A DNA stretch of 25,919 nucleotides from the IMG/VR virus record IMGVR_UViG_3300017727_003535, positions 1 to 25,919 of that record; one strand, written 5' to 3'. Made by a program: the position numbers and the translations under genes. The DNA comes from a virus. Positions 1 through 25,919 of the stretch are shown here, one piece after another. Each line of letters begins with the position of its first letter. The first letter of the stretch is position 1. The notes under the pieces were generated by a model. It had not been told where the DNA came from, did no database searches, and saw only the letters and a list, made by a program, of their open reading frames with translations.

Positions 1-249
1 CTGGATCTAACCATAGACTCCATGCGAGATCGTATGCTTCGTATCAAGCAGATATGTGGTGCGGGTATGCTGGACAAATACCACATGGATCAGAACACAC
101 AGACAGAGCTGGTGCAGTTCATCGCAGACAACAAGAGTTCTCTTCGTGAGATATCACTGAGAATGGTGCTGAAGATTGCGGATCTATGGAAGATGGCTCC
201 GGATCGATATCAGGACCTGGCGAGATCCACCTGCATGAAAGGTCAGTAA
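1..249 (+). CDS. C-terminal end of a probable phage AAA-type ATPase (partial)
   Basis: The reading frame is open from the first base of the window and ends with TAA at 247-249, so only the last 82 residues of a longer protein are present. The segment is helical and charged; its closing part (SLREISLRMVLKIADLWK) resembles the C-terminal lid helices of MoxR/CobS-like AAA ATPases of T4-like marine phages, where an S-x-R-x-x-x-K-x-x-D-L pattern is common. No Walker motifs fall inside the window, so the assignment rests on this tail alone. An internal ATG at 22 would give a 75-residue product, but the uninterrupted upstream frame argues for truncation by the window edge. Confidence 0.5.
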   Translation: MDLTIDSMRDRMLRIKQICGAGMLDKYHMDQNTQTELVQFIADNKSSLREISLRMVLKIADLWKMAPDRYQDLARSTCMKGQ

Positions 250-1968: not shown

Positions 1969-2631
1969 ATGGAACAGCTTCTCACACACATATATCATCG
2001 TCAATCCAATCCTCTGCACTCAATAGTGAATTCAGATGGCAAGATAAACAAATGGTCTCTGCCGATAGAACAGGATCTAGCATCAGCTGTGATTGTGGAA
2101 GTGTTGGAATACACCTACAACAATGTGAATCAATGGAAGTCTGAACCTGGAGATCACGGCACAGATCATCTGCGTTACAAACTGCCTCTGCCTGATTCTG
2201 CTCGTGGACCTGCACTCAAAGAACTGTACACAGTGTATTCAGAGAATGCTCGACCACACACAGAGGCACGCAATGCTCACTATGAGTTTGTCAGCATTGT
2301 GAGACCAGGTGGCACAGTGGGTCGTCACAACGATGTGCAACACATGAAAACGCCGCCTAAAGGATCGTCGCTGAGAAAGTCACGTTTCTCTGTGCAGTGG
2401 CCAGTGGACTGTGATTTTCGAGTGGACGGTGTGGGTCGATTGGATACTCGTCCAGGTCGTGTGTATCTGTTTGATCACTGTCGCAATCACTGGGTGGAGA
2501 ATCGAAGCACCGACACAGACAAGATAGACCTCAGCATCATGATAAACTCTGCTCCTCAGTCAGCACGATTGAATCGAGCAGTGCTACACAGCATCGAAGA
2601 ATGGTTTGAAGCCAACACTCTCACACTGTAA
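1969..2631 (+). CDS. 2OG-Fe(II) oxygenase-like protein (divergent fourth paralogue)
   Basis: 220 residues. The second half carries a double-stranded beta-helix iron triad: H-N-D at 120-122 and a distal His in R-N-H-W (H174), followed by a conserved strand D-K-I-D-L-S-I at 184-190. The architecture (HxD, then W/F-H, then a basic residue and a strand ending L-S) matches the three tandem paralogues at 9958-12037, but the 2-oxoglutarate-binding Arg is replaced by Lys185 at the equivalent place. Members of the Asp/Asn hydroxylase-like class hydroxylate protein side chains or small molecules with O2 and 2-oxoglutarate. The target here is unknown. It lies in the higher-GC block, upstream of a secreted protein and the iron permease. 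Confidence 0.6.
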   Translation: MEQLLTHIYHRQSNPLHSIVNSDGKINKWSLPIEQDLASAVIVEVLEYTYNNVNQWKSEPGDHGTDHLRYKLPLPDSARGPALKELYTVYSENARPHTEARNAHYEFVSIVRPGGTVGRHNDVQHMKTPPKGSSLRKSRFSVQWPVDCDFRVDGVGRLDTRPGRVYLFDHCRNHWVENRSTDTDKIDLSIMINSAPQSARLNRAVLHSIEEWFEANTLTL

Positions 2632-2640
2632 CACTGTCGC

Positions 2641-2648: not shown

Positions 2649-2680
2649 AAAGCACAACAAGTTAGCAGAGGAACTCATGC

Positions 2681-2983
2681 ATGATTAAAACGTTTCTAAT
2701 GGTCATATTCCTTATGACAGAACCTGGCATTGAAGGCCGAGAAGCCTTTGTGATAGGTGAACCCAAATTTACCGACATACCCAACTGTCAGATGTATGTG
2801 CAGGCCAACATTGCAGACTTTCATGAAATCCTAGCAGACAAGTATGGCAGACCCAAAGAGATTGCTCAGATATTCTGTGTGCAAACAGATAGACTCGACG
2901 AGTTCATGAGTTCACAAGGTCTAGCACCACTGGAACAACCACGACAGCCCTCAGCACCAACCACTCCGGGACTCAGCACATAA
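2681..2983 (+). CDS. Small secreted two-cysteine protein, family member 1
   Basis: 100 residues: a short hydrophobic N-terminus (residues 3-12), then a segment with F-T-D-I-P-N-C (C37) and a second cysteine in I-F-C-V-Q-T-D (C66), and a Pro-rich tail. The layout (short hydrophobic leader, aromatic strand, first Cys after a D/N-rich turn, 15-30 residues, second Cys in a beta strand) recurs in three other small genes in this window (5343-5594, 9080-9337, 15386-15574). Export to the periplasm with one disulfide is inferred. An AGAGGAA sequence (667-673 of the 2600s, i.e. 2667-2673) serves the start at 2681. Function unknown. Confidence 0.55.
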   Translation: MIKTFLMVIFLMTEPGIEGREAFVIGEPKFTDIPNCQMYVQANIADFHEILADKYGRPKEIAQIFCVQTDRLDEFMSSQGLAPLEQPRQPSAPTTPGLST

Positions 2984-2986
2984 ACA

Positions 2987-2994
2987 ACTAAATA
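2987..2994 (+). promoter_or_regulatory. Late-promoter-like octamer ACTAAATA before the iron permease gene
   Basis: ACTAAATA immediately after the stop codon of the secreted protein and about 30 bases before the FTR1-family gene, which also has an AAAGGA ribosome binding site at 3015-3020. Identical to the octamer at 2641-2648. Confidence 0.45.
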
Positions 2995-3025
2995 CTGTTC
3001 TTGTTAAACGTAACAAAGGAACACA

Positions 3026-3628
3026 ATGATAACATCACTCGCGGCCACCTCTTTCATATGGTTTAGAGAAGGTCTAGAAGCATTCCTCATAATTCAAGCC
3101 ACGTGGATGCTCACAACCAACACAAGACAACGACTCGCACTGACACTCAGCACACTACTTGCAATAGCATCATCAATCACACTCGGCTACTTTGCCATTG
3201 AATACATACAAAAAGATTTTGATCGTGTGGAAGCCTACACATCTCTAGTGGCATCAGCTCTGCTATTCTGGACTGCCTGGTTCTGTCATGGAGCATCACA
3301 GCATCTGCACAACATCAAACACACCCTGACCAACAACCAAGTCAAAGGCACAGTGCTGGCTCTAGCAGTGATAGTGTACCTCACAGTGTTCAGAGAAGGT
3401 GCAGAGATAGTAGCATTCTTGTTGGCTCTGTATGTTGCAGGCGCATCTCTGACCAGCATTGGATTAGGTGCAGTGATTGGATTAGGTGCGTTAGGTTTGG
3501 TTGGTTACACAGTTTCCAAACGAATACAGAAGATACCTGTTGCAAAAATATTTAAAACATCCAGATGGTTGTTTGCACTGATGGCAGTGTACTTCTTATA
3601 CTATGGCATACACGAACTGTTAGAATAG
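3026..3628 (+). CDS. FTR1-family high-affinity iron permease
   Basis: A 200-residue polytopic membrane protein with both R-E-x-x-E motifs that define the FTR1/EfeU iron permease family: R-E-G-L-E at 14-18 in the first helix and R-E-G-A-E at 123-127 in a later helix. These glutamates coordinate iron during passage across the inner membrane. Hydrophobic segments lie roughly at 5-24, 38-58, 72-90, 107-136, 138-160 and 180-196. Cellular members are usually about 270-280 residues with seven helices, so this is a shortened version. No EfeO or EfeB partner is seen nearby. It is the last gene of the higher-GC plus-strand block, with a ribosome binding site and a late-type octamer upstream. An iron permease is an unusual phage cargo gene; a role in iron uptake during infection is inference. 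Confidence 0.85.
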   Translation: MITSLAATSFIWFREGLEAFLIIQATWMLTTNTRQRLALTLSTLLAIASSITLGYFAIEYIQKDFDRVEAYTSLVASALLFWTAWFCHGASQHLHNIKHTLTNNQVKGTVLALAVIVYLTVFREGAEIVAFLLALYVAGASLTSIGLGAVIGLGALGLVGYTVSKRIQKIPVAKIFKTSRWLFALMAVYFLYYGIHELLE

Positions 3629-3694
3629 AAACAACTATTGGTTGACTTCACTTTCTCCTAGGAAAAATTATTTAACAAAAATAGCATTTTCTTG

Positions 3695-3722
3695 TTGACA
3701 CACTTTGTAGTTGTGTTATACT
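3695..3722 (+). promoter_or_regulatory. Strong sigma70-type promoter of the leader-tRNA-mazG unit
   Basis: TTGACA (3695-3700), a 16-base spacer and TATACT (3717-3722). Transcription should start near 3729. This is the only strong promoter seen between the FTR1 gene and the DUF59 gene, so it probably drives the structured leader, both small genes, tRNA-Arg, tRNA-Leu, the MazG-like gene and DUF59. Confidence 0.65.
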
Positions 3723-3728
3723 ACATAT

Positions 3729-4570: not shown

Positions 4571-4951
4571 ATGTACGCATCAAATTTTGAATTAGTAGAA
4601 AACTTTATGAGAAGCATGAAGCAAGAAGTCAAAGATAGGCCCAGTTGGCCCAAAGGAGAGACTCAAGACCTCCGGGTAGATTTGATTAGAGAAGAACTAA
4701 ATGAGCTAGAAGAAGCAATGTCAACAGGAACACTAGTAGATGTTGCAGACGCACTTACTGATATTTTGTATGTTACTTACGGTGCCGGCCACGCATTTGG
4801 TATTAATCTAGACAAATGCTTTGAAGAAGTGCAAAATTCCAATATGACTAAACTTGACGAATCAGGAAAGCCAGTGTATAATGATAAAGGTAAAGTTATA
4901 AAAGGTGCAAGATATACAGCACCAGATTTGGATAAAATATTATATGATTGA
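4571..4951 (+). CDS. mazG: MazG-like nucleotide pyrophosphohydrolase
   Basis: 126 residues of the all-alpha NTP-pyrophosphohydrolase (MazG/HisE-like) fold. The metal-binding signature is intact: E-E-L-N-E at 41-45 and D-V-A-D-A-L-T-D at 57-64. The C-terminal extension (K-V-I-K-G-A-R-Y-T-A-P-D-L, 108-120) is typical of the phage branch. Family members hydrolyse nucleoside triphosphates to monophosphate and pyrophosphate; marine phage versions were first proposed to act on ppGpp and later tested on dNTPs. Which applies here cannot be read from sequence. A TTAGGAGA ribosome binding site (4555-4562) precedes the ATG. The gene ends inside the start of the DUF59 gene (8-base overlap), so the two are co-translated. 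Confidence 0.88.
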   Translation: MYASNFELVENFMRSMKQEVKDRPSWPKGETQDLRVDLIREELNELEEAMSTGTLVDVADALTDILYVTYGAGHAFGINLDKCFEEVQNSNMTKLDESGKPVYNDKGKVIKGARYTAPDLDKILYD

Positions 4952-5348
4952 AACAACTGATGATATGATGAACTCTCCGGGTAGCCCGGCTGTAGACCCT
5001 CATCTATCTTGCGACTTAAAAGACATTGAAGACAACACCGAAGCAAAAATAAAATATATTGAAAAAGTTAAAGAAGCTCTACAACGAGTATACGACCCGG
5101 AGATATCAGTAGACATATACAACTTAGGTTTAGTTTACGATGTAAAAATTACAAAAGACAATGCGGTATGGGTGCTGATGAGTTTAACATCAGCATTCTG
5201 CCCAGCCGCAGACATAATACCTCAAGACATAATCCAAGAGGTATCTACTGTAGAAGGTATTACTAAATGTGAAGTTAGAATAACAATGACTCCACAATGG
5301 GGCAGAGAAATGATAGAGCCTAATATTAGAGATATGATGGGACTATAA
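4944..5348 (+). CDS. DUF59 / MIP18-family Fe-S cluster assembly protein (SufT/PaaD-like)
   Basis: 134 residues from the ATG at 4944, which overlaps the end of the MazG-like gene. The domain occupies about residues 38-132: D-P-E-I at 51-54, then D-I-Y-N-L-G-L-V-Y-D-V (57-67), a conserved cysteine in S-A-F-C-P-A-A-D (C86) and the closing strand V-R-I-T-M-T-P-Q-W (111-119). These are the hallmarks of the family that includes SufT, the N-terminal domain of HCF101 and the PaaD group, which help insert Fe-S clusters into client proteins. Residues before 38 are acidic and probably disordered. A phage copy may service phage Fe-S enzymes such as the radical SAM protein at 13001-13981; that link is inference. 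It converges tail-to-tail with the next gene, with a 6-base overlap. Confidence 0.85.
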   Translation: MIETTDDMMNSPGSPAVDPHLSCDLKDIEDNTEAKIKYIEKVKEALQRVYDPEISVDIYNLGLVYDVKITKDNAVWVLMSLTSAFCPAADIIPQDIIQEVSTVEGITKCEVRITMTPQWGREMIEPNIRDMMGL

Positions 5349-5640: not shown

Positions 5641-6264
5641 ATGGTTGACTTTTCTTTGTATAAAACGTACAATAAGAATATGAAAAATTTAGTCCCTATT
5701 GTTATAGAACAAACAAGTAAAGGCGAGAGAAGTTATGATATCTTTTCTCGTTTAATGAAAGATAGAATTATTGTAATGGATGGTGTAGTCGAAGACCATA
5801 TGTCGTCTGTTATGTGTGCTCAATTATTATTCTTAGAGTCACAAAAACCAGAACAAGATATTACAGTGTACATTAATTCGCCAGGCGGATTAGTTACAGC
5901 AGGTATGGCAATATACGATACCATGCAGTATATCAAATGTGATATTAGAACCATAGTTATAGGACAAGCCTGCTCAATGGGATCTGTGTTAGCATCGTCT
6001 GGGACCAAAGGCAAACGATTTGTGTTGCCAAACTCAAGACACATGATACACCAACCGCTAGGTGGTGCCAGAGGACAAGCAACTGATGTACAGATTCAAG
6101 CAGACGAATTGTTGCGTTGGAAGAAAGTCCTAACAGAAATTTATCACAAGCACACTGGACAAACACTAGAAAAATTAAAAGACGACATGGAACGAGATAA
6201 GTTTATGACTGCAAAAGAATCTGTTGAGTACGGATTAGCAGACGAAATTGTGGAGAAAAGATAA
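5641..6264 (+). CDS. clpP: ATP-dependent Clp protease proteolytic subunit
   Basis: 207 residues, normal length for ClpP. The serine protease triad is intact: Ser112 in G-Q-A-C-S-M-G-S, His137 in M-I-H-Q-P-L-G-G and Asp182 in L-K-D-D-M-E-R-D. The oxyanion segment S-P-G-G (80-83) and the handle region around T-G-Q (172-174) are also present. ClpP forms tetradecamers that degrade proteins unfolded by host ClpX or ClpA. No ClpX-like gene is in the window, so it would have to use a host unfoldase. The start at 5641 is taken for lack of a better one; no clear ribosome binding site precedes it, and an internal ATG lies at codon 14. The stop codon shares a base with the next ATG (TAATG at 6262-6266). 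Confidence 0.93.
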
Positions 6265-15648: not shown

Positions 15649-16699
15649 GGTATGGATCTAGATTTAGATACTTCCCCCATTCGGTATAATAGTGTCGCAT
15701 ACCGACTTCGTCGTGTATAGTTCCGTTCTCGTGTCTACCATGCAGTATACGTCTGTTCTCTGTGCCTTCACGCATTGTTGTTCCTTGCCCAGCCACTCCT
15801 ATTAGGTCTTCGTGTAGGTTACGTCCAAACGGTCCCCATATTGAGTTGTGATGGTTAACACGAGTTAATCTTTCTTCTGGTGTGTCTTTGCGTAGTCCAT
15901 ATCCTCTAAACTCTATTAGTACTTTGTTTGGTCCTAGTGGAGTTACTGAGTCTGAACGATATGCACTTCCTCGTAGGTTAAAATTGAATCCTGGAAATAG
16001 GTCAACCATGTACCACTGGTTGGGCGGCAGGTTAGGAAAAGATAATTCTCCGCGGTCTTCAAAACCGTCATACTCAGTATAGTTAACAGTAAAGCTAGAC
16101 ACGTTGACATGACCATTATCAAAAGGAACATTTTTTCTAGCGAAGTACTCATCATTGAATCCCGACACACGATTGAAGTAGTGCATGAAGTCATGATAAA
16201 ATTCTGAGTTGGTATCATGCCACAACTTGTAATTGGTATTGATGACTGCTTTGTGATAATGAAATACTTCTAGTTCTTCTGTGTCAATAGCATCAGCAAT
16301 ACAATCAAATGCACCTGCTGTCCATTCATCTACAGACTGCGTAGGATTAGGATCAAGTGTTACCCATACCATTCCTCCGTGCTTTACTTCACAGTGTAGT
16401 TTAGGTTCAACTGTTACAACAGGTGCTTTAAATGTACCGCTTGGTTGACTAACTCCATAGTTTCGCCATGCATGAACACGTTTGCCAGTGTTGTATGCAA
16501 GTACGTTTACACCTGCTATCTGTGAAGTTCTAAAGTCTCCTTGTTTATACATTTCACTAATGTGACATATAGGTACCCATACCTTTGAAAAGATACGTTC
16601 TTGTTCTTGTGCAAATATTTCTGGGCAGTTGTAGGCTGTGCTACTAATTGATTCTACTACTGGCTTCTTTAACCAGTTGGCGTGATTACGTGGTGGCAT
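15641..16699 (-). CDS. Ring-hydroxylating-oxygenase alpha-subunit-like protein lacking the Rieske cluster ligands
   Basis: 352 residues. The N-terminus (Y-N-C-P-E-I-F-A-Q-E, then F-S-K-V-W-V-P-I-C-H and G-D-F-R-T) is typical of Rieske non-heme iron oxygenase alpha subunits, and the catalytic domain keeps the facial triad: H169 and H173 in S-E-F-Y-H-D-F-M-H, Asp298 in L-H-E-D-L-I-G, and the bridging Asp162. But the 2Fe-2S motif (CxH...CxxH, normally about residues 80-125) is gone: R-V-H-A-W-R-N-Y-G (74-82) runs within about 20 residues into H-C-E-V-K-H-G-G-M-V-W, so both cluster loops are deleted. Electron delivery would need another route, or the protein no longer oxygenates. AAGGAG precedes the start. 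Confidence 0.75.
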   Translation of the reverse strand: MPPRNHANWLKKPVVESISSTAYNCPEIFAQEQERIFSKVWVPICHISEMYKQGDFRTSQIAGVNVLAYNTGKRVHAWRNYGVSQPSGTFKAPVVTVEPKLHCEVKHGGMVWVTLDPNPTQSVDEWTAGAFDCIADAIDTEELEVFHYHKAVINTNYKLWHDTNSEFYHDFMHYFNRVSGFNDEYFARKNVPFDNGHVNVSSFTVNYTEYDGFEDRGELSFPNLPPNQWYMVDLFPGFNFNLRGSAYRSDSVTPLGPNKVLIEFRGYGLRKDTPEERLTRVNHHNSIWGPFGRNLHEDLIGVAGQGTTMREGTENRRILHGRHENGTIHDEVGMRHYYTEWGKYLNLDPYRA

Positions 16700-16717
16700 C
16701 TAGTTCTCCTTACGATG

Positions 16718-16725
16718 TATTTAAA
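16718..16725 (-). promoter_or_regulatory. Late-promoter-like octamer TTTAAATA
   Basis: On the minus strand TTTAAATA lies 18 bases before the oxygenase ATG at 16699, with an AAGGAG ribosome binding site between. Similar to ACTAAATA ahead of nrdA and the iron permease. Confidence 0.4.
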
Positions 16726-16782
16726 CTAATATAACATGTAAAAAGACTGTTGTCTAATAGACTGTAACTATGAAGTAATAGT

Positions 16783-16809
16783 CAAAAGAAAAGGCCCCTA
16801 AAGGCCTTT
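16783..16809 (-). terminator. Rho-independent terminator after cspA
   Basis: On the minus strand AAAGGCC (16809-16803), loop TTTAGG, GGCCTTT (16796-16790), followed by a T-rich run (TTTTCTTTT within 16792-16784). A classic GC-rich stem and T-tract 18 bases after the cold-shock gene. Confidence 0.8.
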
Positions 16810-16826
16810 CCTTAAATATTCAAAAC

Positions 16827-17030
16827 TTATGAAGGTCGAATATCTGATGCTTGTGGACCTTTAGGTCCTTCCGCCATTTCGTAAGTAACTGCTTGATTCT
16901 CGTTAAGAGATTTATAACCGTCACCTGAAATAGCTGAGAAATGAGCGAATACATCTTTTCCGCCGTCGTCTGGAGTAATAAAGCCAAAACCTTTGTCTGC
17001 ATTAAACCATTTTACTTTTCCTGTTGCCAT
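16827..17030 (-). CDS. cspA: Cold-shock-domain protein (CspA family)
   Basis: 67 residues, full length for a bacterial cold-shock protein. Five-stranded OB fold with RNP1 K-G-F-G-F-I at 13-18 and RNP2 V-F-A-H-F at 27-31; the start [10 protein letters not shown] is nearly canonical. It binds single-stranded RNA or DNA and melts mRNA structure. AAGGAAAT precedes the ATG. It is the last gene of a three-gene unit (DUF454, hypothetical, cspA) with a consensus promoter at 17811-17839 and a strong terminator immediately downstream, so it is likely expressed independently of the surrounding late genes. It may act as an RNA chaperone for phage or host transcripts. Confidence 0.95.
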
Positions 17031-17051
17031 TTTTATTTCCTTAGTTATTAA

Positions 17052-17369
17052 TTATGCCGCCTGTCTTTCTACTTCTTTGTCTTTCACGACATGGGTAGCC
17101 GACTTCTTGCCTGTTTCTGGTCGGATAGGCTCCAACCATGAGTCCGCTATGTATGCTTTAGGTGAATCTCCAAACTGATTTTTCAATCCAGTTGCTTCAA
17201 TCCACCAGTAATGATCTGTCACAGGACACATGCATGAGACACCTCTAAAATCAAAGGTATCATTCTGCTTGTACTTTCCAATGTATTCTTTAACAAGGAC
17301 AATCTTGCCGATATTTTCAGGTCTTACTGAATGTATCACTTTTGCTAAATCACCTTGTTCACACTTCAT
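17052..17369 (-). CDS. Small soluble protein, unknown function
   Basis: 105 residues with an all-beta look: K-C-E-Q-G-D-L-A-K-V-I, then G-K-I-V-L-V-K-E-Y-I-G, then V-S-C-M-C-P-V-T-D-H-Y-W-W-I-E-A. It ends with a basic tail. The C-M-C pair with Cys3 and His53 could bind a metal, but the spacing is not a known motif. The 'removing one strand then W-W-I-E-A' pattern resembles SH3-like barrels often seen in small phage proteins. It lies two bases after the DUF454 gene and 21 bases before cspA in one transcript. Function unknown. Confidence 0.7.
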   Translation of the reverse strand: MKCEQGDLAKVIHSVRPENIGKIVLVKEYIGKYKQNDTFDFRGVSCMCPVTDHYWWIEATGLKNQFGDSPKAYIADSWLEPIRPETGKKSATHVVKDKEVERQAA

Positions 17370-17370
17370 A

Positions 17371-17790
17371 TTACTTTAACCAAGCTACTCGCTTTCCTTC
17401 TTTAACACGTCGAGCGTGTTCCTCTGTTGAGCCAGGATATCGCCAAGCCCAAATTGCTACTAGCACCATTGCACCACCACTCCACATAATCGCTTTCAGA
17501 TTCTCTGTAGCAAACCATGTAAAGATAATAGTTGATGCCATTACCAATACCATTAAGTACTTTCCCTTTGTAGGGAAAACACGTTTTTTATTCCAATTTG
17601 TTAAAAACTTACCAAACCACGGATGATTGTATAACCATTTTTCCATTCTTGGTGAGCTTTTAGCAAAGGCCCATGCAGCGATCACTAAAAAGATGCTGAA
17701 TGGAATACCGGGCGTTACAATTCCAATGTAGGCTAAACCTACACATAGAAAACCTATACCCATGTATATATATTTTTTAATTTGATTCAT
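17371..17790 (-). CDS. DUF454 (YbaN-type) inner-membrane protein
   Basis: 139 residues. The family signature is clear: an N-terminal helix pair with G-I-V-T-P-G-I-P-F-S-I-F-L, then A-A-W-A-F-A-K-S-S-P-R (38-48) and W-L-Y-N-H-P-W-F-G-K-F-L (52-63), and a second hydrophobic region at about 77-112. DUF454/YbaN proteins are small inner-membrane proteins of unknown role found in many proteobacteria. It is first in the three-gene unit that ends with cspA, directly behind a consensus sigma70 promoter, and has AAAGGCGG ahead of the ATG. A bacterial gene kept by a phage on its own promoter suggests a host-directed role. Confidence 0.8.
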   Translation of the reverse strand: MNQIKKYIYMGIGFLCVGLAYIGIVTPGIPFSIFLVIAAWAFAKSSPRMEKWLYNHPWFGKFLTNWNKKRVFPTKGKYLMVLVMASTIIFTWFATENLKAIMWSGGAMVLVAIWAWRYPGSTEEHARRVKEGKRVAWLK

Positions 17791-17810
17791 TTATGTACCG
17801 CCTTTGTTAT

Positions 17811-17839
17811 ATTATATAGTATGCTGTGCTTTTTGTCAA
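17811..17839 (-). promoter_or_regulatory. Consensus sigma70 promoter of the DUF454-cspA unit
   Basis: On the minus strand a perfect TTGACA (17839-17834), a 17-base spacer and a perfect TATAAT (17816-17811). It directly abuts the stop codon of the PAAR-peptidase gene, leaving a leader of about 14 bases before the ATG at 17790. Confidence 0.8.
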
Positions 17840-18874
17840 CTATGATCTGACTGGGCGGAAAATGCCAGATATTCTACCATTACTCGATCTCCAGCCACCT
17901 CTCCAACTATTTGTAATTGAGCCACCTGAAGGGTTGTTGTTTGTTGCACTTGCTTTATCACTTTGATTGCCGCCGACAAAAGTATATACACCTGGCGACG
18001 GAACAGTGTATATAAAGTTAACGTGACTGTAGTTCCAAACCACAATGTCACCTGGTTGACCATCTGATAGTGGCACAGGAACTCCACCGTATACGCTTGT
18101 TTTATCTCTAAAGTCATATGCTCTAGCACTTTGCATATATTTGTAACCTGTTCTTTTTAATACCCAATTACAGAATCCTGCACACCAAGGTGTTTGATCT
18201 GTTTTCCAATATGATGTATCTGGAAAGCCTAATTCTTTCCATATGCCTATAATATTTCCGTTACTAGGATCAACGGTTTCGTCCCATGCATTGGTTGCTG
18301 CTTCGTCTAGTAGCTGAGTTAAGAATCCTGGAATTCCATTTGCTGCTGCTGTTGAATTGGCAGCACTTGCATCAACTAGTGGAGTCGTAGTTCCTAGGTC
18401 GTCAACACCTGCTGCTGGAGCACCCTCATACCTTTGTGGTACTTGGTTCTCTGCAATAGTGCCATTACTTTGTGTACCACCAGTTGCTCCTACATCGGGA
18501 GGATTTGATATTGCTTCTTGTATAACTGCATTAATTGCTGCCGCTGCCGCAGGTGAAATTATAATCGGAGGTACATATCCTTCGTTTGCCCAAACGTTTG
18601 GAGAACCACTTTCTGCTGCATTAGCGACCCAACTTCCGTGTCCGTCTGTTGCATCATTCTTGCGGTGTACTTTTATGTTGTTTGCAAATACTGTAGGTGA
18701 ACCAGCCGCAGCAGGATCTCCACACGCAGTAGTATCGCCTATACGTACAGTTTGTTCGTTGTTTGTAAACACATTCTCCGAACCAGATGTGTATGCTTCT
18801 TGATGAAATGGATTGGGAGTAGGACTTGCATGTCCTTTGTGCTTATCTACATTTGTTCTTACTACTTCTGGCAT
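17840..18874 (-). CDS. PAAR-domain spike-tip protein fused to a CHAP/NlpC-like peptidase
   Basis: 344 residues in three parts. Residues 1-100 are a PAAR-like repeat region rich in Gly, Ala and Pro with repeated S-G-S-E-N-V-F / A-G-S-P-T-V-F / S-G-S-P-N-V-W units, the metal-pinned cone that caps phage and type VI secretion spikes. About 101-195 is a low-complexity Ala/Thr linker. About 196-344 is a cysteine peptidase/amidase domain: C231 in T-P-W-C-A-G-F-C-N-W and H284 in N-Y-S-H-V-N-F, with D-G-Q-P-G-D-I-V-V-W between, as in CHAP-type peptidoglycan hydrolases. It probably sits at the baseplate tip and opens the peptidoglycan at entry. A GATAAGTA box lies five bases upstream of the ATG. Confidence 0.8.
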   Translation of the reverse strand: MPEVVRTNVDKHKGHASPTPNPFHQEAYTSGSENVFTNNEQTVRIGDTTACGDPAAAGSPTVFANNIKVHRKNDATDGHGSWVANAAESGSPNVWANEGYVPPIIISPAAAAAINAVIQEAISNPPDVGATGGTQSNGTIAENQVPQRYEGAPAAGVDDLGTTTPLVDASAANSTAAANGIPGFLTQLLDEAATNAWDETVDPSNGNIIGIWKELGFPDTSYWKTDQTPWCAGFCNWVLKRTGYKYMQSARAYDFRDKTSVYGGVPVPLSDGQPGDIVVWNYSHVNFIYTVPSPGVYTFVGGNQSDKASATNNNPSGGSITNSWRGGWRSSNGRISGIFRPVRS

Positions 18875-18879
18875 ACTAG

Positions 18880-18887
18880 TACTTATC
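18880..18887 (-). promoter_or_regulatory. Late-promoter-like octamer GATAAGTA, five bases before the ATG
   Basis: The minus strand reads TAG-ATAAGTA-CTAGT-ATG: the G of the octamer is the last base of the upstream stop codon, and the spacer to the start at 18874 is five bases. Almost identical to the arrangement at 19616-19623. No Shine-Dalgarno sequence; a leaderless late message is likely. Confidence 0.45.
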
Positions 18888-19180
18888 TACTTTGATAGTG
18901 CAATACCTGTTGTAGTCTGTGTATATTGTTTGCTGATATTATCTTCTGTTTTAGCAACACAACTTACTGCTGTTGCTTTAAGCATAAATTTGCCATCTGG
19001 TGATACACTAAACATAAATGGTGCAAGGCCTAATCCTTTTTGCTGTGCAATAAGTACCATTGGCTTGTGCAATGTATAATGTGTATCAGTTTCTTCTTCT
19101 AAACGTCCTACGATTTCTTCGCCTGACGCAAGTTTAAAGGAGACATTATCGCCTACTTTGTATGGTGTTTCAATTAACAT
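18887..19180 (-). CDS. Sm/LSM-like small protein
   Basis: 97 residues. The first half reads V-G-D-N-V-S-F-K-L-A-S-G-E-E-I-V-G-R-L-E-E-E, the bent-strand pattern of Sm-like folds (strand, G-E-x-I-x-G turn, strand), then Y-T-L-H-K-P-M-V-L. Proteins of this shape are widespread in T4-like marine phages near the baseplate and nrd genes, as far as I recall, with no proven function. AGGA lies six bases before the ATG. It lies between glutaredoxin and the PAAR-peptidase genes. Confidence 0.65.
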   Translation of the reverse strand: MLIETPYKVGDNVSFKLASGEEIVGRLEEETDTHYTLHKPMVLIAQQKGLGLAPFMFSVSPDGKFMLKATAVSCVAKTEDNISKQYTQTTTGIALSK

Positions 19181-19184
19181 ATTA

Positions 19185-19439
19185 TTATCCTAGTGAGTGT
19201 CCAGTACCGTTATAACCTGTGTCTTCAACGTACTTGAGTAATTCGTTGTATCCACCGATCTTTTCTTCACGTACTGTAATTTGTGGAAATGTTCGTGCTG
19301 TTGGGAACTTTTCAAAAAGTTGTTCGCGAGTAAAGTCTACGTCTAATTGTTTATAGACAAATTCAAACTGATTCGTTTCACAAAACTTCTTAGCCCTGTC
19401 ACAGAACGGACAAGCTGGTTTTCCGTATATTTCTATCAT
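19185..19439 (-). CDS. grx: Glutaredoxin
   Basis: 84 residues with the thioredoxin fold: active site C-P-F-C at 10-13 following I-E-I-Y-G-K-P-A, the cis-proline strand T-F-P-Q-I-T-V at 50-56, and the glutathione-site G-G-Y-N-E-L. It would re-reduce the NrdA active-site disulfide via the C-terminal C-E-A-C of NrdA, using glutathione. It sits downstream of nrdA and nrdB in the same minus-strand run, separated by one small gene. AGGA precedes the ATG. Confidence 0.92.
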   Translation of the reverse strand: MIEIYGKPACPFCDRAKKFCETNQFEFVYKQLDVDFTREQLFEKFPTARTFPQITVREEKIGGYNELLKYVEDTGYNGTGHSLG

Positions 19440-19442
19440 GTG

Positions 19443-19610
19443 TTATCCTACGTAAATAGTTTCTTTCTTTTTATTAGTTACCTTAACCATGATAGCACCA
19501 GCGTTCTTCTTGGATATCGCCGCATTGATAGCAGTGGCTTCAGTACCGTATGTACCGTACGTTGTCCACGCTTCGAATGGGGAATGTCTTCTAAATTGAA
19601 CTCTGAACAT
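19443..19610 (-). CDS. Conserved-looking 55-residue basic protein
   Basis: A real gene below the usual size cut-off: ATG at 19610, TAA at 19445-19443, codon use like its neighbours. The product starts M-F-R-V-Q-F-R-R-H-S-P-F-E-A-W and continues with T-Y-G-T-Y-G-T-E-A-T-A-I-N-A-A, a compact alpha/beta unit, ending in a lysine-rich strand (K-V-T-N-K-K-K-E-T-I-Y-V). It fills the gap between nrdB and glutaredoxin, ending three bases before the glutaredoxin ATG. Upstream, TAG-ATAAGTA-ATAGT-ATG couples it to a late-type box. Function unknown. Confidence 0.75.
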   Translation of the reverse strand: MFRVQFRRHSPFEAWTTYGTYGTEATAINAAISKKNAGAIMVKVTNKKKETIYVG

Positions 19611-19615
19611 ACTAT

Positions 19616-19623
19616 TACTTATC
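19616..19623 (-). promoter_or_regulatory. Late-promoter-like octamer GATAAGTA, five bases before the ATG
   Basis: On the minus strand the nrdB stop codon TAG supplies the G of GATAAGTA, followed by ATAGT and the ATG at 19610. Fourteen of fifteen positions from TAG to the base before ATG match the site at 18875-18889. Confidence 0.45.
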
Positions 19624-20726
19624 TAAAGTTGGAAACCTTCGAATGTCTTTTCATCAACATCTTGCTTAACTCCGCCGATAATATAACTTTCGATTTCAGT
19701 TTCCTGTGGTGCAACTTGTAGCCCTGAGCTACTTAACCAATGTTGTGTCCACGGTAAAGGATTTGTTGTCAAAGGACGATCATATATTGGATCCATGCCT
19801 AATGCTTTAAGTCTTTTGTTAGCAATAAATTCTACGTATGCATGTAGTAAGTTTGCATTAAGTCCTACAATAGAACCTTTTTCAAACAAGTAATCTGCCC
19901 AACGCTTTTCTTCCTCAACACAAGTACGCCACATTTCATATGATTCTTCTTTACATTCTTTTGCAATTTTAACAAAGTCTGGATCGTCGTCTCCTTTTGC
20001 CCAATGCTTTAGAATGTGTGTAGATAAATTTAAGTGTGTTGCTTCGTCACGAGCAATAAGAGAAATAATCTTTGCAGACCCTTCCATCTTCTTTAATTCG
20101 CCAAATGCAAATGTACATGCAAACGAAACATAAAAACGTAAACCTTCTAAGATATTTACTACCATCATTGCTTTATACAATTGCTTTTTAACTTCGTACA
20201 TGCTACCTTTACCTTTGTACATGTAATCTGTTACAACTTTATGAAACTTATCGTATTCTGCAGATACACTTTCTGCTCTTGCAATAATTTGCTCATCATC
20301 TAAAATAGTATCAAACACTTCTGCTGGATCAGCATATACATTTTTTACAATGTGTGTGTAAGAACGACTATGGATAGTTTCTTGGAAGTCCCATGCTACA
20401 ATACAACTTTCTAATTCTGGATTAGAACAGTAAGGTAAAAAGTTTAAACAAGGTCCACGTCCTTGTACACTATCAAGTAGGGTTTGATATTTTAAGTTTG
20501 ATGTAAAGATATGTTTCTGTGCATCTGTAAATTCTGCATAGTCACCTCTATCTTTCTGTAAGGAGACTTCTTCAGGTCTCCAAAAATAACCTAACATAGT
20601 TTGGTTAAGTTTGTCATACTCCGGATAACGGAATACGTCATAACGTTGAGTGTTTTGATCTTCACCAAAGAACATATACTGCTTTGTGAAGTCTACTTTA
20701 TTACGATTAAAAACTGTCTTTGTCAC
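19623..20726 (-). CDS. nrdB: Ribonucleotide reductase class I, beta subunit
   Basis: 367 residues. Di-iron ligands are complete: D85, E116, H119, E194, E228 and H231, and the radical tyrosine is Y123 in E-T-I-H-S-R-S-Y, so this is a class Ia-type NrdB that uses a tyrosyl radical. It partners NrdA to make dNTPs for phage replication. The start codon is GTG at 20726, with AAGAGGAA upstream; the N-terminal T-V-F-N-x-N-K-V-D motif is canonical. A 17-base gap separates it from nrdA. The C-terminus (D-E-K-T-F-E-G-F-Q-L) is the tail that docks into NrdA. Confidence 0.97.
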   Translation of the reverse strand: MTKTVFNRNKVDFTKQYMFFGEDQNTQRYDVFRYPEYDKLNQTMLGYFWRPEEVSLQKDRGDYAEFTDAQKHIFTSNLKYQTLLDSVQGRGPCLNFLPYCSNPELESCIVAWDFQETIHSRSYTHIVKNVYADPAEVFDTILDDEQIIARAESVSAEYDKFHKVVTDYMYKGKGSMYEVKKQLYKAMMVVNILEGLRFYVSFACTFAFGELKKMEGSAKIISLIARDEATHLNLSTHILKHWAKGDDDPDFVKIAKECKEESYEMWRTCVEEEKRWADYLFEKGSIVGLNANLLHAYVEFIANKRLKALGMDPIYDRPLTTNPLPWTQHWLSSSGLQVAPQETEIESYIIGGVKQDVDEKTFEGFQL

Positions 20727-20743
20727 TGTGTGTGGTTCCTCTT

Positions 20744-23068
20744 TTATATATTACACGCTTCGCATTCTTCACCTTCAACTTCTTCTACTGGTTGTAGATC
20801 ACCGTTCATGTGTGAATGTCCATTCATTTCAACTTCTGGTTCTTGTACTTCGTCATCACCTTTAAAGTCATAAGTGTTTTGATAATAACTTGTCTTCCAA
20901 CCTAACTTATAAGTTGTCAACATGTCTTTCATCATTACGCTCAACGGAACTTCGTTGTTCTCGAATTGCGTAGGGTTGTATGACCAATTACCACTAATGG
21001 ATTGATCAAAGAATTTTTGCATCACTGCTACAATGTTGATATACCCATCATTGCTTGGCATATCCCAAAGTAAAGTATAGAAGTTCTTTAGTTGACTATA
21101 CTGCGGAACAACTTGTTTAAGAGGCCCTTTTTTACTCTTCTTAACGGACAAGTATCCTCTAGGTGGTTCAATTCCGTTTGTTGCGTTCGACACAACGGAA
21201 CTGCTCTCCGAAGGCATTTGTGCGGACAATGTGCTGTGCCTAAGACCGTGTAATTTGATGTCCTTGCGTAAAGAATCCCAATCATACTGTAATTTTGTTT
21301 TTACAACTCCGTCTATATCTTTCTTATATGTGTCAATTGGCAATATGCCGTCTGCATATTTAGTACGATCGAAGTATTCACATGCTCCACGTTCTTCAGC
21401 AAGTTCATTACTTGCAACTAACAAGTAGTATTGAAACGCTTCTGTAAGCTCGTGTACTAATGTCCATGCTTTAGGATCATCGTACTTAACTTTGTTCTTT
21501 GCAAGATAGTGTGCAAGTCCAATATAGCCTACTCCTAATGAGCGTCTGGCTTTTGTACTAATCTCTGCTGCCTTGACTGGATAACCTTGATAATCAATAA
21601 TTTCTTCTAATGCTCTAACAGCAAGATCACATAGTGGCTCAAGCTCTTCTAGTTTATTAATTAAACCTACATTGATAGCACTTAAAATACATAATGCAAT
21701 TTCACCTTCTTCATCATCAATGTGTTGAATTGGTTTAGTTGGTAGTGTAATCTCTTGACACAAGTTACTCATGTATACAGGATCTTTAAAAGAGCTGTGT
21801 GAGTTACTATGGTCAACATTCATAATATAGATACGTCCTGTTTCAGCACGTTCTTTTAACATGTTACCAAACAGTTCTTTTGCACTTACTGTTTTCTTCC
21901 TAATAGATGTTTTGCGTTCTGCTTTCTCATATACATCTTTGAATAAATCGTTATCGCCTGAGTAGAAAGCATCATATACTTCTGGTACTTCATGTGGCGA
22001 GAAAAGAGTTATGTCTTGACCGGTCAACAACCTTTCATAAAACAGTTTGTTAATCTGAATAGAATAATCTAGTCTACGTACACGATTGTCTTCAGTACCT
22101 TTATTGTTTTTCAACACAAGGATGTCATCAATCTCGTAATGCCAAATAGGAAAATGGGTTGTTGCTGAACCACCACGTACACCATTCTGTGTACAACTTC
22201 TTACTGTGGATTCGTAAACTTTTAGAAACGGGATAACACCAGTGTGTGCTACTTCTCCGCCCCTGATCTTCGAGTTAATCGCTCTCGTACGACCCGAGTT
22301 AATGCCGATGCCTGCTCGCTGAGCAATATAATAACCAATAGCGGAGTTGCTGCTAAAAATACTAGACAAAGTATCGTCAACATCAACCAATACACAACTA
22401 GCAAACTGACGGATTGGAGTACGAACTCCAGCCATGACTGGGGTTGGGATATTGATTTTAAAAAGGGAGGTCGCGTCATAATATTTCTTTACATAATTTA
22501 ATCTTGTGTCTTTAGGATAGTTTGCAAACAATGTTGCCGCAATCATCATATACATGAACTGCGGAGTTTCATAGATGTCACCATTACTTCTGTCCTGACA
22601 CAAATACTTATCCACAACTTGACGAAGACCTGCATAAGTAAATTCTTCATTACGGTCATGCTTTAACCAAGTGTTCATTTTCTTTAGTTCAGTATCAGTA
22701 TATTGATCTTTAATTGCACTATCATAGACTCCACGCTCTATGTTGCGATCAATTATAGTATTGAGAGAATCATGTTCATACTTTGTATATACTTTTTTAT
22801 GTAGTCCATACAACAACAATCTTGCTGCTGCATATTGATAATTAGGATTTTCTAACGATATAAGATCGTTCGCGCTCTTAATTAATATTTCTTGGATTTC
22901 TTCTGATGTCATGCCGTCATAAAACTGTAAATCAGCGTTCATCTCGATCTGCGAACTACTCACTCCAGCAAGACCAGCACAAGCTTCTTCAACAACAAAG
23001 TGCATTTTATCTAAATCTAAAATCTCTTTGCTACCGTTTCTTTTTGTGATGTATATATCTTTGCTCAT
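20744..23068 (-). CDS. nrdA: Ribonucleotide reductase class I, alpha subunit
   Basis: 774 residues, full length. The N-terminal ATP-cone (about 5-95) gives allosteric activity control. Active-site residues are present: C225 (F-A-S-C-V-L), N435/C437/E439 (N-L-C-Q-E-I-T) with the thiyl radical on C437, and the partner C460. The C-terminus ends with C-E-A-C (769-772), which shuttles electrons from glutaredoxin. It reduces NDPs to dNDPs. It is upstream of nrdB, with a late-type ACTAAATA about 32 bases ahead of its ATG and AGAGAG just before it. The presence of the ATP-cone distinguishes it from NrdE-type subunits. Confidence 0.97.
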   Translation of the reverse strand: MSKDIYITKRNGSKEILDLDKMHFVVEEACAGLAGVSSSQIEMNADLQFYDGMTSEEIQEILIKSANDLISLENPNYQYAAARLLLYGLHKKVYTKYEHDSLNTIIDRNIERGVYDSAIKDQYTDTELKKMNTWLKHDRNEEFTYAGLRQVVDKYLCQDRSNGDIYETPQFMYMMIAATLFANYPKDTRLNYVKKYYDATSLFKINIPTPVMAGVRTPIRQFASCVLVDVDDTLSSIFSSNSAIGYYIAQRAGIGINSGRTRAINSKIRGGEVAHTGVIPFLKVYESTVRSCTQNGVRGGSATTHFPIWHYEIDDILVLKNNKGTEDNRVRRLDYSIQINKLFYERLLTGQDITLFSPHEVPEVYDAFYSGDNDLFKDVYEKAERKTSIRKKTVSAKELFGNMLKERAETGRIYIMNVDHSNSHSSFKDPVYMSNLCQEITLPTKPIQHIDDEEGEIALCILSAINVGLINKLEELEPLCDLAVRALEEIIDYQGYPVKAAEISTKARRSLGVGYIGLAHYLAKNKVKYDDPKAWTLVHELTEAFQYYLLVASNELAEERGACEYFDRTKYADGILPIDTYKKDIDGVVKTKLQYDWDSLRKDIKLHGLRHSTLSAQMPSESSSVVSNATNGIEPPRGYLSVKKSKKGPLKQVVPQYSQLKNFYTLLWDMPSNDGYINIVAVMQKFFDQSISGNWSYNPTQFENNEVPLSVMMKDMLTTYKLGWKTSYYQNTYDFKGDDEVQEPEVEMNGHSHMNGDLQPVEEVEGEECEACNI

Positions 23069-23099
23069 TTCTCTCTCATTTTAATTTTGTGTACAGAGG

Positions 23100-23128
23100 T
23101 ATTTAGTTTTAGTACCTGCGAATGCAGG
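23100..23128 (-). promoter_or_regulatory. nrdA leader: hairpin and late-promoter-like octamer ACTAAATA
   Basis: On the minus strand a perfect 5-bp hairpin CCTGC-ATTC-GCAGG (23128-23115) is followed by ACTAAATA (23107-23100) in the gap before nrdA. The hairpin has no T-tract. The octamer is identical to those upstream of the iron permease and the 2681 gene. Confidence 0.4.
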
Positions 23129-23131
23129 ATC

Positions 23132-23233
23132 TTAGTGGCTAAAATTTATACCAGTGAACGTTTTATAATACTTGTTTAATTGTACAGTCAGAATGTGTGT
23201 TGGACAAGAAGAAAATATATCTTTCTTAGCCAT
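23132..23233 (-). CDS. Possible 33-residue peptide between tail fibre and nrdA
   Basis: ATG at 23233, six bases after the tail-fibre stop codon, opens a 33-residue frame starting M-A-K-K-D-I-F-S-S-C-P-T-H and ending T-G-I-N-F-S-H. It fills most of the gap before nrdA. There is no ribosome binding site, and the frame is short enough to be chance; it could also be a gene remnant. Confidence 0.3.
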   Translation of the reverse strand: MAKKDIFSSCPTHILTVQLNKYYKTFTGINFSH

Positions 23234-23239
23234 TTCTAA

Positions 23240-24811
23240 CTAGACGCCGTATTGAATGTCGAACGACAGAGACCCTGTAGCACCTGTAGCAATAGGATTC
23301 TTGTAAGACAACACTACTGTATCAGTACCACTGTCTGTGTCATTGTCACGTAAAGCGGCTGAAAACTCAAAACCAGTCATTACAACACCACCCACTGACG
23401 CAGTAGTAGTGTCGGAATATTCGTAATTATCTGACAAAGATAATTTTGAGATGTCATCACCAATTGTGATTTGAACAAATCCTCTTCGAACATGGTTAGC
23501 AAGTCTTAGTGTGTAGTTAATTTTCATAAATGCGTTAAGTGCTGAGAAAACAGCAACAGGTCTAAAACTGTCAGTTGTATAAATCTCTGAATAGTTTTTG
23601 TCTGTGAAACTAGCAAAGTCTCCACCTTGCACTTCTGCAATGGCTGCTACAGTCTCTGTGTTCACGACACCTGCGTCTTGTTGTCTATCACTTGTACATT
23701 CACGGACTACGTTGTTTCTACTTTCACCAAACTCAACAATAGTTGATGTTGGATTTGCAGATGATCCTGTGTTGTTTCCACAACTTACAAAATCACATCT
23801 ACTAATTTTTGTACCGTATCCATAGTTTGCATAGAATGCTTGTTTGGCAATTTCAGTAAAGTTACAGTCATTAATAATCCAGTTGTTACCTTGCCCTGTT
23901 ACTCCTGCAATGTAAATGGCTGTGTCATTAACGTTAAAGTCACTGTTTGTAATTTCAACTTTAGTTGCTGTGTTTACTGTTTGGTTGCACTTTATACTGA
24001 TGGAGTTATCTTTGAACTTACATTGTTTAATTTTAACTGCGTCTACTTTAAGACCTGCTAAATCGTTGTTCCATATTACAGATGCACTCTCTGTAGCATA
24101 GTTTGAAACTGGTGCACCTAAGCTATATTCTCCATCGAATATAATTCCTTCTAGCTCTATATCTTTTGCTCCTGTAAGAACAAGTGAACCTGAAGAACGT
24201 TTAATAGTAAGGTTACTAATGTGTATGTTCGTTGGACGGTCGCTACTTGTAAATGATGCTAAAGAAGTTCCTTGTGAACTAATGAGCTGTATGTTTCTTG
24301 TGTCTAAGTTTAGTATTGCACCCTCTGCTGTTTCACCTCTAATGATTGCGTTACTAGGAACATCAAGCTCACCAGTAAACAAGTATTCACCATTAGGTAT
24401 AACTAATACTTTTTTAAAGTCGGGGTCTGCATTTCTAAATAGTTCAGTAAAAGCATTTTCAAATGCAGTTACGTTATCAGTTGAACCGTCACCTACTGCT
24501 CCAAAGTCTGCAACACTAACTTCCATCTCATCAATCTTACCTAATAGTGTACGTGATTGACTTTGTGTAATTGAAGGATTATCTGATGCAAATTTATAGC
24601 TAGATGCTAGTTCTAAAATATTATCATGTTCGGTTAATACTTTTGTATTACCTACGTAAGGAGCACCTTCTGTAGTTGATCCATTACCAATATACAGTTC
24701 TTGTGTGTCTACTGCCCATGCTAATTCTGCTGAACTTAATTGCGGTACACCACTAGAAGAGTTCTTTTTACCTCTTCTGATCTGAATCTTTGATATTTGA
24801 ACTACAGCCAC
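23240..24811 (-). CDS. Tail fibre / receptor-binding-type protein with beta-helix
   Basis: 523 residues. The first 60 residues (I-S-K-I-Q-I-R-R-G, then L-S-S-A-E-L-A-W-A-V-D-T-Q-E-L-Y-I-G-N-G) are the adaptor-like N-terminal domain of phage fibres (major-tropism-determinant type). V-A-D-F-G-A-V-G-D-G-S-T-D at 100-112 begins a right-handed parallel beta-helix of the pectate-lyase/depolymerase superfamily, with irregular N-x-x-I and K-I-x-x-C-x-F repeats to about residue 370, then a beta-rich C-terminal domain. It probably binds host surface glycan and may cleave it. The start is GTG at 24811 with AGGAG seven bases upstream. A CATAAATA late box lies further up. Confidence 0.75.
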   Translation of the reverse strand: MAVVQISKIQIRRGKKNSSSGVPQLSSAELAWAVDTQELYIGNGSTTEGAPYVGNTKVLTEHDNILELASSYKFASDNPSITQSQSRTLLGKIDEMEVSVADFGAVGDGSTDNVTAFENAFTELFRNADPDFKKVLVIPNGEYLFTGELDVPSNAIIRGETAEGAILNLDTRNIQLISSQGTSLASFTSSDRPTNIHISNLTIKRSSGSLVLTGAKDIELEGIIFDGEYSLGAPVSNYATESASVIWNNDLAGLKVDAVKIKQCKFKDNSISIKCNQTVNTATKVEITNSDFNVNDTAIYIAGVTGQGNNWIINDCNFTEIAKQAFYANYGYGTKISRCDFVSCGNNTGSSANPTSTIVEFGESRNNVVRECTSDRQQDAGVVNTETVAAIAEVQGGDFASFTDKNYSEIYTTDSFRPVAVFSALNAFMKINYTLRLANHVRRGFVQITIGDDISKLSLSDNYEYSDTTTASVGGVVMTGFEFSAALRDNDTDSGTDTVVLSYKNPIATGATGSLSFDIQYGV

Positions 24812-24837
24812 TTATTTGCTCCTGAAATTGTTATTAG

Positions 24838-24845
24838 TATTTATG
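24838..24845 (-). promoter_or_regulatory. Late promoter CATAAATA of the tail-fibre gene
   Basis: On the minus strand CATAAATA lies 26 bases before the GTG at 24811, with an AGGAG ribosome binding site in between. It fits NATAAATA exactly, as expected for a structural gene. Confidence 0.55.
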
Positions 24846-24907
24846 TCAATCAGTTCGCAAGTAGGGATAGCTTGTGTAACCTTGCTACAATTGCTTGTAT
24901 AGCACTA

Positions 24908-25618
24908 TTATGCTTTTGATGCGTAGTATTCTTCTACTTTAGAAAGCCACTTGTCTTGATATTCGTTCCAAGTATCTGGAGTAACATCGAACTGTTGATA
25001 CTGTAAGTCTCTGCTACACATAAAAATGTGTCCTTCACGTATATCAGTACCATATACTTCATTATGTGCCATTGCATAGGCTACTAACTGTAGATAGTAA
25101 TCTTCAACCCATTCTGCTTTCTTAGGTTTGTTAGTTTGCTTATGGTCCATAATAGCAGGTTTGCCCTTGAACACACCACATAAGTCTGTTGTGCCTGAAT
25201 ATAAACCTGGAAAGTATAATGCTTGTTCTATTGACCATATTTCATCTACATGTTTTAAACCATTTTCAATGATAACGTCTGCCATCTTGTTTGCTTGTAC
25301 ATGCACAGGATTATTACCCGGTTGTCGTTGTTCGCCTACAACATACCTTTCTAAGTTGTTGTGCATTGCAGTACCAACTCCGGCTGCTTCAGTTGTGATG
25401 CGTTTTGCATTTGCTTCACCAACTCGTTTGCGCCATTCAATAAGGTGAGTCATATCTTTAGTCGAACTAAGAATAGTTGTTACACTTGGTAACTTCTCAT
25501 CGTCTGGAGTTAGGTAAACACGTTTGCGTGTTACAGGATCATTGATCTGTTTTAACGATTTATATTCAAAACGTTCAACGAAAGGTGGCGGTGTCATTTC
25601 TATAGTTTCATGAGTCAT
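24908..25618 (-). CDS. PD-(D/E)XK nuclease (RecB/Cas4-like exonuclease)
   Basis: 236 residues. The nuclease core reads G-T-A-M-H-N-N-L-E (82-90, with H86), E131, G-T-T-D-L (D145), I-M-D-H-K-Q-T (157-162, the D-x-K catalytic pair D158 and K160) and Q-L-V-A-Y-A (177-182), in the order of RecB-family PD-(D/E)XK exonucleases. Phage members act in DNA recombination, host DNA breakdown or end processing. Transcription comes from a sigma70-like promoter, with the ATG at the expected +1. The C-terminus could be extended by about 20 residues by a +1 frameshift near the stop. No helicase partner is in the window. Confidence 0.8.
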   Translation of the reverse strand: MTHETIEMTPPPFVERFEYKSLKQINDPVTRKRVYLTPDDEKLPSVTTILSSTKDMTHLIEWRKRVGEANAKRITTEAAGVGTAMHNNLERYVVGEQRQPGNNPVHVQANKMADVIIENGLKHVDEIWSIEQALYFPGLYSGTTDLCGVFKGKPAIMDHKQTNKPKKAEWVEDYYLQLVAYAMAHNEVYGTDIREGHIFMCSRDLQYQQFDVTPDTWNEYQDKWLSKVEEYYASKA

Positions 25619-25625
25619 ACTGTAT

Positions 25626-25654
25626 ATAGTACTACCTTTTTAGTATTTTGTCAA
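25626..25654 (-). promoter_or_regulatory. sigma70-type promoter of the nuclease gene, leaderless
   Basis: On the minus strand TTGACA (25654-25649), a 17-base spacer and TACTAT (25631-25626). The ATG at 25618 begins eight bases after the -10 box, at the expected +1. There is no Shine-Dalgarno sequence. Confidence 0.6.
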
Positions 25655-25661
25655 GTGTGGA

Positions 25662-25919
25662 TTATGTTTCTTGGGATAATTGCTGTGGTGCTGCACTTGC
25701 TGCCGTTTGATCTACAGCGTCTTGACTGCTTTGATCACCTTGTGGGGATTGGGGATCTGCGTCTGGCGCACCTGGTACATCCAATTCAATTCCGTCTGCG
25801 TTAAAGTTCTTTACAAGACTTTGGATTGCAGGACTGCTGTCGTAAATTGCTTTGAACGTTTCGTAGTCTGCTGCTAATTGGATTTTATTTTTTAATGCTA
25901 AGTTTGAAAGTCCTGCCCA
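25662..25919 (-). CDS. C-terminal part of a phage protein with acidic, Gln/Ala-rich tail (partial)
   Basis: The minus-strand frame is open from the last base of the window to TAA at 25664-25662, giving the last 85 residues of a protein whose start lies outside. The first half is folded-looking (L-S-N-L-A-L-K-N-K-I-Q-L-A-A-D-Y, then A-I-Q-S-L-V-K-N-F). The rest is a disordered Asp/Gln/Pro/Ala/Ser tail. No family recognised. Open frames on the plus strand here are shadows. The nuclease promoter lies just beyond its stop codon. Confidence 0.65.
   Translation of the reverse strand, partial: WAGLSNLALKNKIQLAADYETFKAIYDSSPAIQSLVKNFNADGIELDVPGAPDADPQSPQGDQSSQDAVDQTAASAAPQQLSQET

Follow-up and report, generated by a model that had tools for sequence, protein, structure and literature searches.

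A short FTR1-family permease gene of uncultured T4-like viruses suggests iron import into infected cells

Iron limits growth across much of the open ocean. Do phages use only the iron already in their host, or do they actively acquire more? The window analysed here, a 25,919-nucleotide stretch of viral DNA (IMG/VR record IMGVR_UViG_3300017727_003535), raises this question with a gene that resembles those of FTR1 iron permeases and that lies among several genes for iron proteins. Does the gene belong to a phage, what would its product do, and is it linked to the iron proteins around it? A phage iron permease, with a promoter that is possibly iron-responsive in relatives, makes the larger question testable with one gene.

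The FTR1 gene and its predicted protein

The gene is a single open reading frame on the plus strand (start ATG, stop TAG) that encodes 200 amino acids, and its product scores above the curated cut-off of the Pfam FTR1 profile (4.7e-15, 56.1 bits against a cut-off of 25.3). A preliminary description, made from the letters of the window, had recognized both R-E-x-x-E motifs of FTR1 in this membrane protein; the profile match and an alignment of 63 FTR1 proteins bear this out. Only R14, E15, E18, A19, R123, E124 and E127 are invariant in the alignment, and the window protein keeps all seven, that is, the two REXXE motifs and one alanine. AlphaFold performed poorly with seven phage sequences alone (pLDDT 45.5); the 63-row alignment was used in their place and yielded a confident model (pLDDT 87.5) with six helices, in which residues 14-18 fall inside helix 2-29 and residues 123-127 inside helix 109-137, the predicted helices 1 and 4. 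EfeU and Ftr1p proper have seven helices, against six in this model. Past position 200, where the phage protein ends, 76 homologs extend by 25-449 residues (median 67); nearly all of them are cellular, and the shortest extension (25) belongs to a phage protein encoded on contig G009. The score with the NCBIfam EfeU equivalog was 63.1 bits, far below the cut-off of 255, and a fold comparison of the model with the PDB and the BFVD viral library returned no match at E <= 0.001. The window protein, as modelled, is an unusual FTR1 with six predicted helices and without TM7. Among the window ORFs scanned, none encoded EfeO/M75, EfeB, P19, a multicopper oxidase or another ferroxidase partner. Small secreted-looking proteins with paired cysteines, mutually alike by eye, are encoded at 2681-2983, 5343-5594, 9080-9415 and 15386-15574, and similar ones are found on related contigs.

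Table 1. Features of the window around the FTR1 gene and the joint
Feature	Position	Strand	Basis or remark
3' end of a phage gene, family phrog_1250	1..249	+	The longer copy in G001 scores 239 bits
Asp/Asn beta-hydroxylase-like 2OG oxygenase, upstream of FTR1	1969..2631	+	PF05118, 23.8 bits (cut-off 22.6)
Small secreted-looking protein, between oxygenase and FTR1	2681..2983	+	No family match
Inverted repeat TTGTTA-AACG-TAACAA, upstream of the FTR1 start	3001..3016	+	Read from the sequence; not the element of the relatives; may be chance
FTR1-family iron permease, six predicted helices, no TM7	3026..3628	+	Pfam, alignment, model
First REXXE motif (R14 E G L E18)	3065..3079	+	R, E, E invariant in 63 homologs
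Second REXXE motif (R123 E G A E127)	3392..3406	+	R, E, E invariant in 63 homologs
DUF59/SufT-like Fe-S assembly protein	4944..5348	+	PF01883
ClpP protease	5641..6264	+	Family match; also adjoins FTR1 in G002, G003, G005 and G008
Stretch of 161 bp identical in G001, L209/L211/L212 and the window; chimera or recombination joint	16413..16573	.	Sequence comparison
Right part (csp, PAAR-CHAP, glutaredoxin, NrdB, NrdA, tail fibre, exonuclease); probably another phage	16574..25919	.	

Phage origin of the gene and a joint inside the window

Orthologs of the gene lie on eight IMG/VR contigs. Identity to the window's copy is 100% for the ortholog on G001, a contig of the phage that also makes up the left part of the window, and about 60% for the other seven. 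All of them keep the same length and motifs and have the C-terminus YFLYYGIHELLE in common; since it is kept by all of them at this level of identity, the gene is maintained and not decaying. FTR1 is phage-borne, because the 91-kb contig G004 unites it with T4-like MCP, TerL, sheath and UvsW genes. On G001 it is accompanied by UvsW and by proteins that resemble a T4-type helicase and primase (the latter two by eye), and the FTR1 side of the window is itself tied to phage DNA by its left end, which lies inside the phrog_1250 gene. The location in phage genomes expected of an auxiliary metabolic gene is thus documented by the G004 core genes, by UvsW on G001 and by phrog_1250. The carriers are uncultured T4-like viruses of (probably marine) bacteria, and the orthologs probably sit in accessory islands of several distinct phages. 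No ortholog was found among 50,697 deposited phages, and the window protein had no match in PHROGs or in the BFVD fold library. A ninth contig, G009, has a different FTR1 of 33% identity; at 39095-40419 (L296, L297), the gene for this second phage FTR1 (237 aa) lies beside one for a 4Fe-4S ferredoxin. FTR1 was lacking from 49 of 50 further contigs, all of which are fragments and so weak as evidence of absence.

The two parts of the window probably have different origins. Positions 1-16573 correspond to G001 with 11 mismatches in 16.57 kb; the window then departs from G001 inside an oxygenase gene, beyond which G001 goes on with a reductase, a TonB-dependent receptor, DUF6580 and a helicase-like protein. 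The window sequence that begins at 16413 is shared with L209, L211 and L212, at 99-100% identity over every stretch of overlap. These are three short contigs of another phage, whose oxygenase gene has a different 3' part (78-81% identity), and in L209 that gene is followed by those for a NifU-domain protein and then a peroxiredoxin-like protein. The preliminary description had treated the 26 kb as one phage, a premise that was not confirmed: with 1-16573 belonging to the G001 phage and 16413-25919 matching the other, the two parts overlapping in 161 identical bases, reading the window as one genome was rejected or is at least unsafe. The window is probably an assembly chimera or a natural recombinant, which look alike in sequence; a chimera is thought likelier, because each half continues its own way elsewhere. 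Since the right part is probably another phage, NrdA, NrdB, glutaredoxin and PAAR-CHAP are unusable as context for FTR1, and the 161-bp joint warns that an association of genes on one metagenomic contig may be artefactual. The oxygenase gene (window 15641-16699; L209-L224) is a mosaic whose 5' and 3' parts have different relatives among phages, and this ring-hydroxylase-like gene may be a real recombination hot spot.

The probable joint at 16.4-16.6 kb is also what could be said in favour of FTR1 being a cellular contaminant or an assembly artefact, and the preliminary description had allowed for positions 1-3640 being cellular DNA. The joint, however, sits 12.8 kb from FTR1. G001 repeats the left part, and seven other viral contigs have orthologs together with phage genes, which contradicts that doubt. 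Cellular contamination as the source of FTR1 was ruled out by the phage core genes on the same contigs and by phrog_1250, and we consider an artefactual origin of either kind extremely improbable.

Several of these contigs carry further transport and haem genes. On G001 (L021:18713-20000, L022:1-596), the T4-like contig of the phage in the left part of the window, a TonB-dependent receptor with plug and barrel (PF07715 and PF00593) adjoins DUF6580 and an FNR-like reductase. G004 (L016-L020), a contig with capsid and terminase genes, has at 22600-27203, in reversed orientation, an apparently complete ABC transporter operon of the branched-chain amino-acid/amide type, with two ATPases, two permeases and a binding protein (Pfam checks cover three of these five). 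Shortly downstream of FTR1 in G002 (L004:4176-6727), and likewise in G003, lies a gene for a TctA tripartite-transporter membrane subunit (PF01970), accompanied by one for a secreted binding-protein-like protein. A porin-like protein of Gram-negative type is encoded in G003 (12192-13130; PF00267) and G008 (11815-12753). The 107-kb phage contig G052 has the haem-synthesis genes for porphobilinogen deaminase and uroporphyrinogen decarboxylase side by side (85544-87339; L293) and, by eye, seemingly also haem-oxygenase-like and CsgG-like genes.

Cellular relatives and the upstream region

Short FTR1s, which extend 6-8 residues past the point where the phage protein ends, were found in 8 of 297 genomes (~3%) of one alphaproteobacterial order. 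The eight genomes are about 1.0-1.2 Mb in size (1.0-1.5 Mb in the whole order) and AT-rich in the stretches read, and proteorhodopsin was present in all 14 genomes of the order tested. FTR1 has been reported in the SAR11 strains HIMB114 and HIMB058 (PMC4771312). From the small AT-rich genomes, the proteorhodopsin and that report, we infer that the order is probably SAR11/Pelagibacterales. The SAR11-type short FTR1s have about 213-233 aa, no TM7 and both REXXE motifs, and in the tree they form one group with the phage proteins (support 99/92; 98/91 with the core columns alone), the G009 protein being clearly near the SAR11 type and the window's clade much less so. Identity of the window protein to these short FTR1s is about 28-31%, and to any cellular FTR1 at most about 35% among the matches listed, which included no recent, identifiable cellular donor. 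By alignment and tree, the equally short SAR11-type FTR1s are the nearest cellular relatives of the phage protein among the matches listed, and a minimal six-helix FTR1 common to phages and streamlined bacteria is thereby defined. None of the eight genomes with a short FTR1 has an M75/EfeO gene. Consequently, the use of FTR1 without EfeO/M75 has a cellular precedent.

In G005, G006, G007 and G008, the element TTGCGAAT-N7-ATTCGCAA occurs with 0-1 mismatch upstream of the FTR1 start codon, and no second site as good was found anywhere in the contigs scanned. The promoter scan of G005 gives TTGCGA and TATACT, spaced by 17 bp, around the element. G002-G004 have it in decayed form, and it is absent upstream of FTR1 in the window and in G001. 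Fur boxes are known to precede SAR11 FTR1 genes (PMC4771312), and most of the SAR11-type FTR1 genes have 7-1-7 Fur boxes such as TGAGAATCATTCTCA at the equivalent position. The phage element agrees with these boxes in its half-sites and differs from them in its spacing (7 bp versus 1 bp in the 7-1-7 box); overlapping Fur repeats are one way to read its 19 bp (compare PMC7762939). Fur control of FTR1 in the phage relatives is therefore possible, and the predicted promoter of its own under a Fur-box-like repeat in four related contigs suggests that FTR1 expression there follows the iron state of the host. The 636-bp FTR1 cassette with the predicted promoter is 91% identical between G005 and G006, whose match at the DNA level is otherwise limited to purF; because the two contigs differ in other respects, the cassette appears to move as a unit. 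The purF gene is also 91% identical (G005 23306-24639, G006 2711-4044).

The window itself yielded no comparable signal: the promoter scan found sites no more numerous than in shuffles, and there was no T4-type late promoter TATAAATA near FTR1. The gene is probably read from an upstream promoter in the window phage. A broader picture, which we offer tentatively and would not yet favour, is that lytic phages of SAR11-like hosts share a portable iron-permease cassette with a Fur-controlled promoter, so that iron would be imported only when the cell is starved, and that the window phage has lost the operator and joined the gene to the upstream transcription unit.

Proposed function and known systems

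The iron proteins listed in the preliminary description are largely real. The DUF59 protein (65.3 bits), the radical SAM/SPASM protein (radical SAM and SPASM at 13001-13981) and the mononuclear-iron oxygenase (ring-hydroxylase-type, 15641-16699) were recovered. NrdB is present too, but right of the joint, so that it probably belongs to another phage. Among four proteins described as 2OG-Fe(II) oxygenase-like, that at 1969-2631 passes the Pfam cut-off and the other three do not: the one at 9958-10740 stays below it, two have no Pfam match, and the assignment of these three relies on a shared H-x-D...H pattern.

Whether the permease specifically feeds iron enzymes of the phage itself (2OG oxygenases, radical SAM proteins, DUF59-dependent Fe-S proteins and NrdB) as a linked module is a separate matter. 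Such genes do lie near FTR1 in the window; in G006 and G007, FTR1 is ~1.6 kb from NrdB; and the density of radical SAM genes is higher in contigs with FTR1 (6.4 versus 2.9 per 100 kb; 30 in 470 kb versus 40 in 1363 kb), a comparison confounded by contig content and length and biased by a comparison set mostly picked by core gene. However, the NrdB of the window lies beyond the chimeric or recombinant joint, and DUF59 occurs in only one of the nine FTR1-bearing contigs, namely G001, whose phage also supplies the window's left part; co-occurring in no other FTR1 phage contig, it was rejected as a partner of FTR1. Pelagibacter phage Mosig has plentiful 2OG oxygenases, and rubrerythrin, ferredoxin and ferrochelatase are annotated in it, but it has no FTR1. 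Many 2OG oxygenases are thus normal in a marine T4-like phage that manages without the permease. A dedicated module of this kind is unlikely. Of the iron supply that the phage was proposed to carry, there remains an FTR1-family permease on a phage genome; its service to the iron proteins seen here is not supported. The same proposal had named the virions as a destination. Tail iron is discussed in the literature as a 'Ferrojan horse', and the lineage has contractile-tail genes, but no link in sequence between FTR1 and tail genes was seen, and we hold incorporation of the imported iron into virions to be very improbable. That FTR1 feeds these particular enzymes or virion tails is in either case an unsupported guess.

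The protein might also move a metal other than iron (such as Mn, Zn or Pb), or have lost transport and taken on another membrane role. Its six helices, the missing TM7 and usual partner, and a score under the EfeU cut-off would fit this, as would its identity of at most about 35% to cellular FTR1 among the matches listed, which leaves some doubt whether the substrate is Fe2+, Fe3+ or another metal. On the other hand, it keeps all seven invariant residues and groups with SAR11-type FTR1s, whose genes carry Fur boxes, and phage relatives have a Fur-like element; we judge a change of metal or loss of transport improbable. It is likely, from motifs, model and relatives, that the phage FTR1 is an auxiliary iron permease of minimal, six-helix form that imports iron during infection. 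Inserted in the inner membrane of the host during infection, it would import ferrous (or ferric) iron into the infected cell and so might keep up the supply while host synthesis is shut down, which would allow iron enzymes of host and phage to keep working. The safest function that we infer for it is general iron import into the infected cell. Taken together, the sequences suggest that T4-like viruses with an FTR1 of their own import iron into the cells they infect.

Like EfeU/YcdN of the Escherichia coli EfeUOB system and yeast Ftr1p (OFeT family), the phage protein is an FTR1 family member with two REXXE motifs. EfeU, a protein of 276 aa with seven helices, acts together with EfeO and EfeB (PMC9174327); the phage protein is shorter, at 200 aa, with six predicted helices and no partner seen in the window. 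It is more like the SAR11-type short FTR1s in short length, lack of TM7, both motifs and membership of one tree group; their genes mostly have a 7-1-7 Fur box upstream, while the window gene is without one. Our search of the open-access literature turned up no description of FTR1 as an auxiliary gene of phages, apart from a doubtful case, a potential prophage region of Geitlerinema sp. BBD_1991, where the account itself speaks of likely false positives (PMC5177637). That region is a predicted prophage stretch in a cellular genome. A functional parallel is cyanophage PstS, the product of an auxiliary gene for phosphate uptake under the control of the host PhoBR system (PMC10976474). Both are phage-borne nutrient-uptake genes with a promoter that is, for FTR1, possibly host-regulated; PstS is a binding protein for phosphate, FTR1 a permease for iron, and host control, established as PhoBR for PstS, is suggested for FTR1 by sequence alone and in relatives of the window phage. 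If the Fur reading is true, the virus would sense the iron state of its host and FTR1 would be the iron counterpart of cyanophage pstS under PhoBR. Auxiliary genes for nutrient uptake are thus known; what is new is that the nutrient is iron, that the permease is minimal and that its relatives may have a Fur-type operator.
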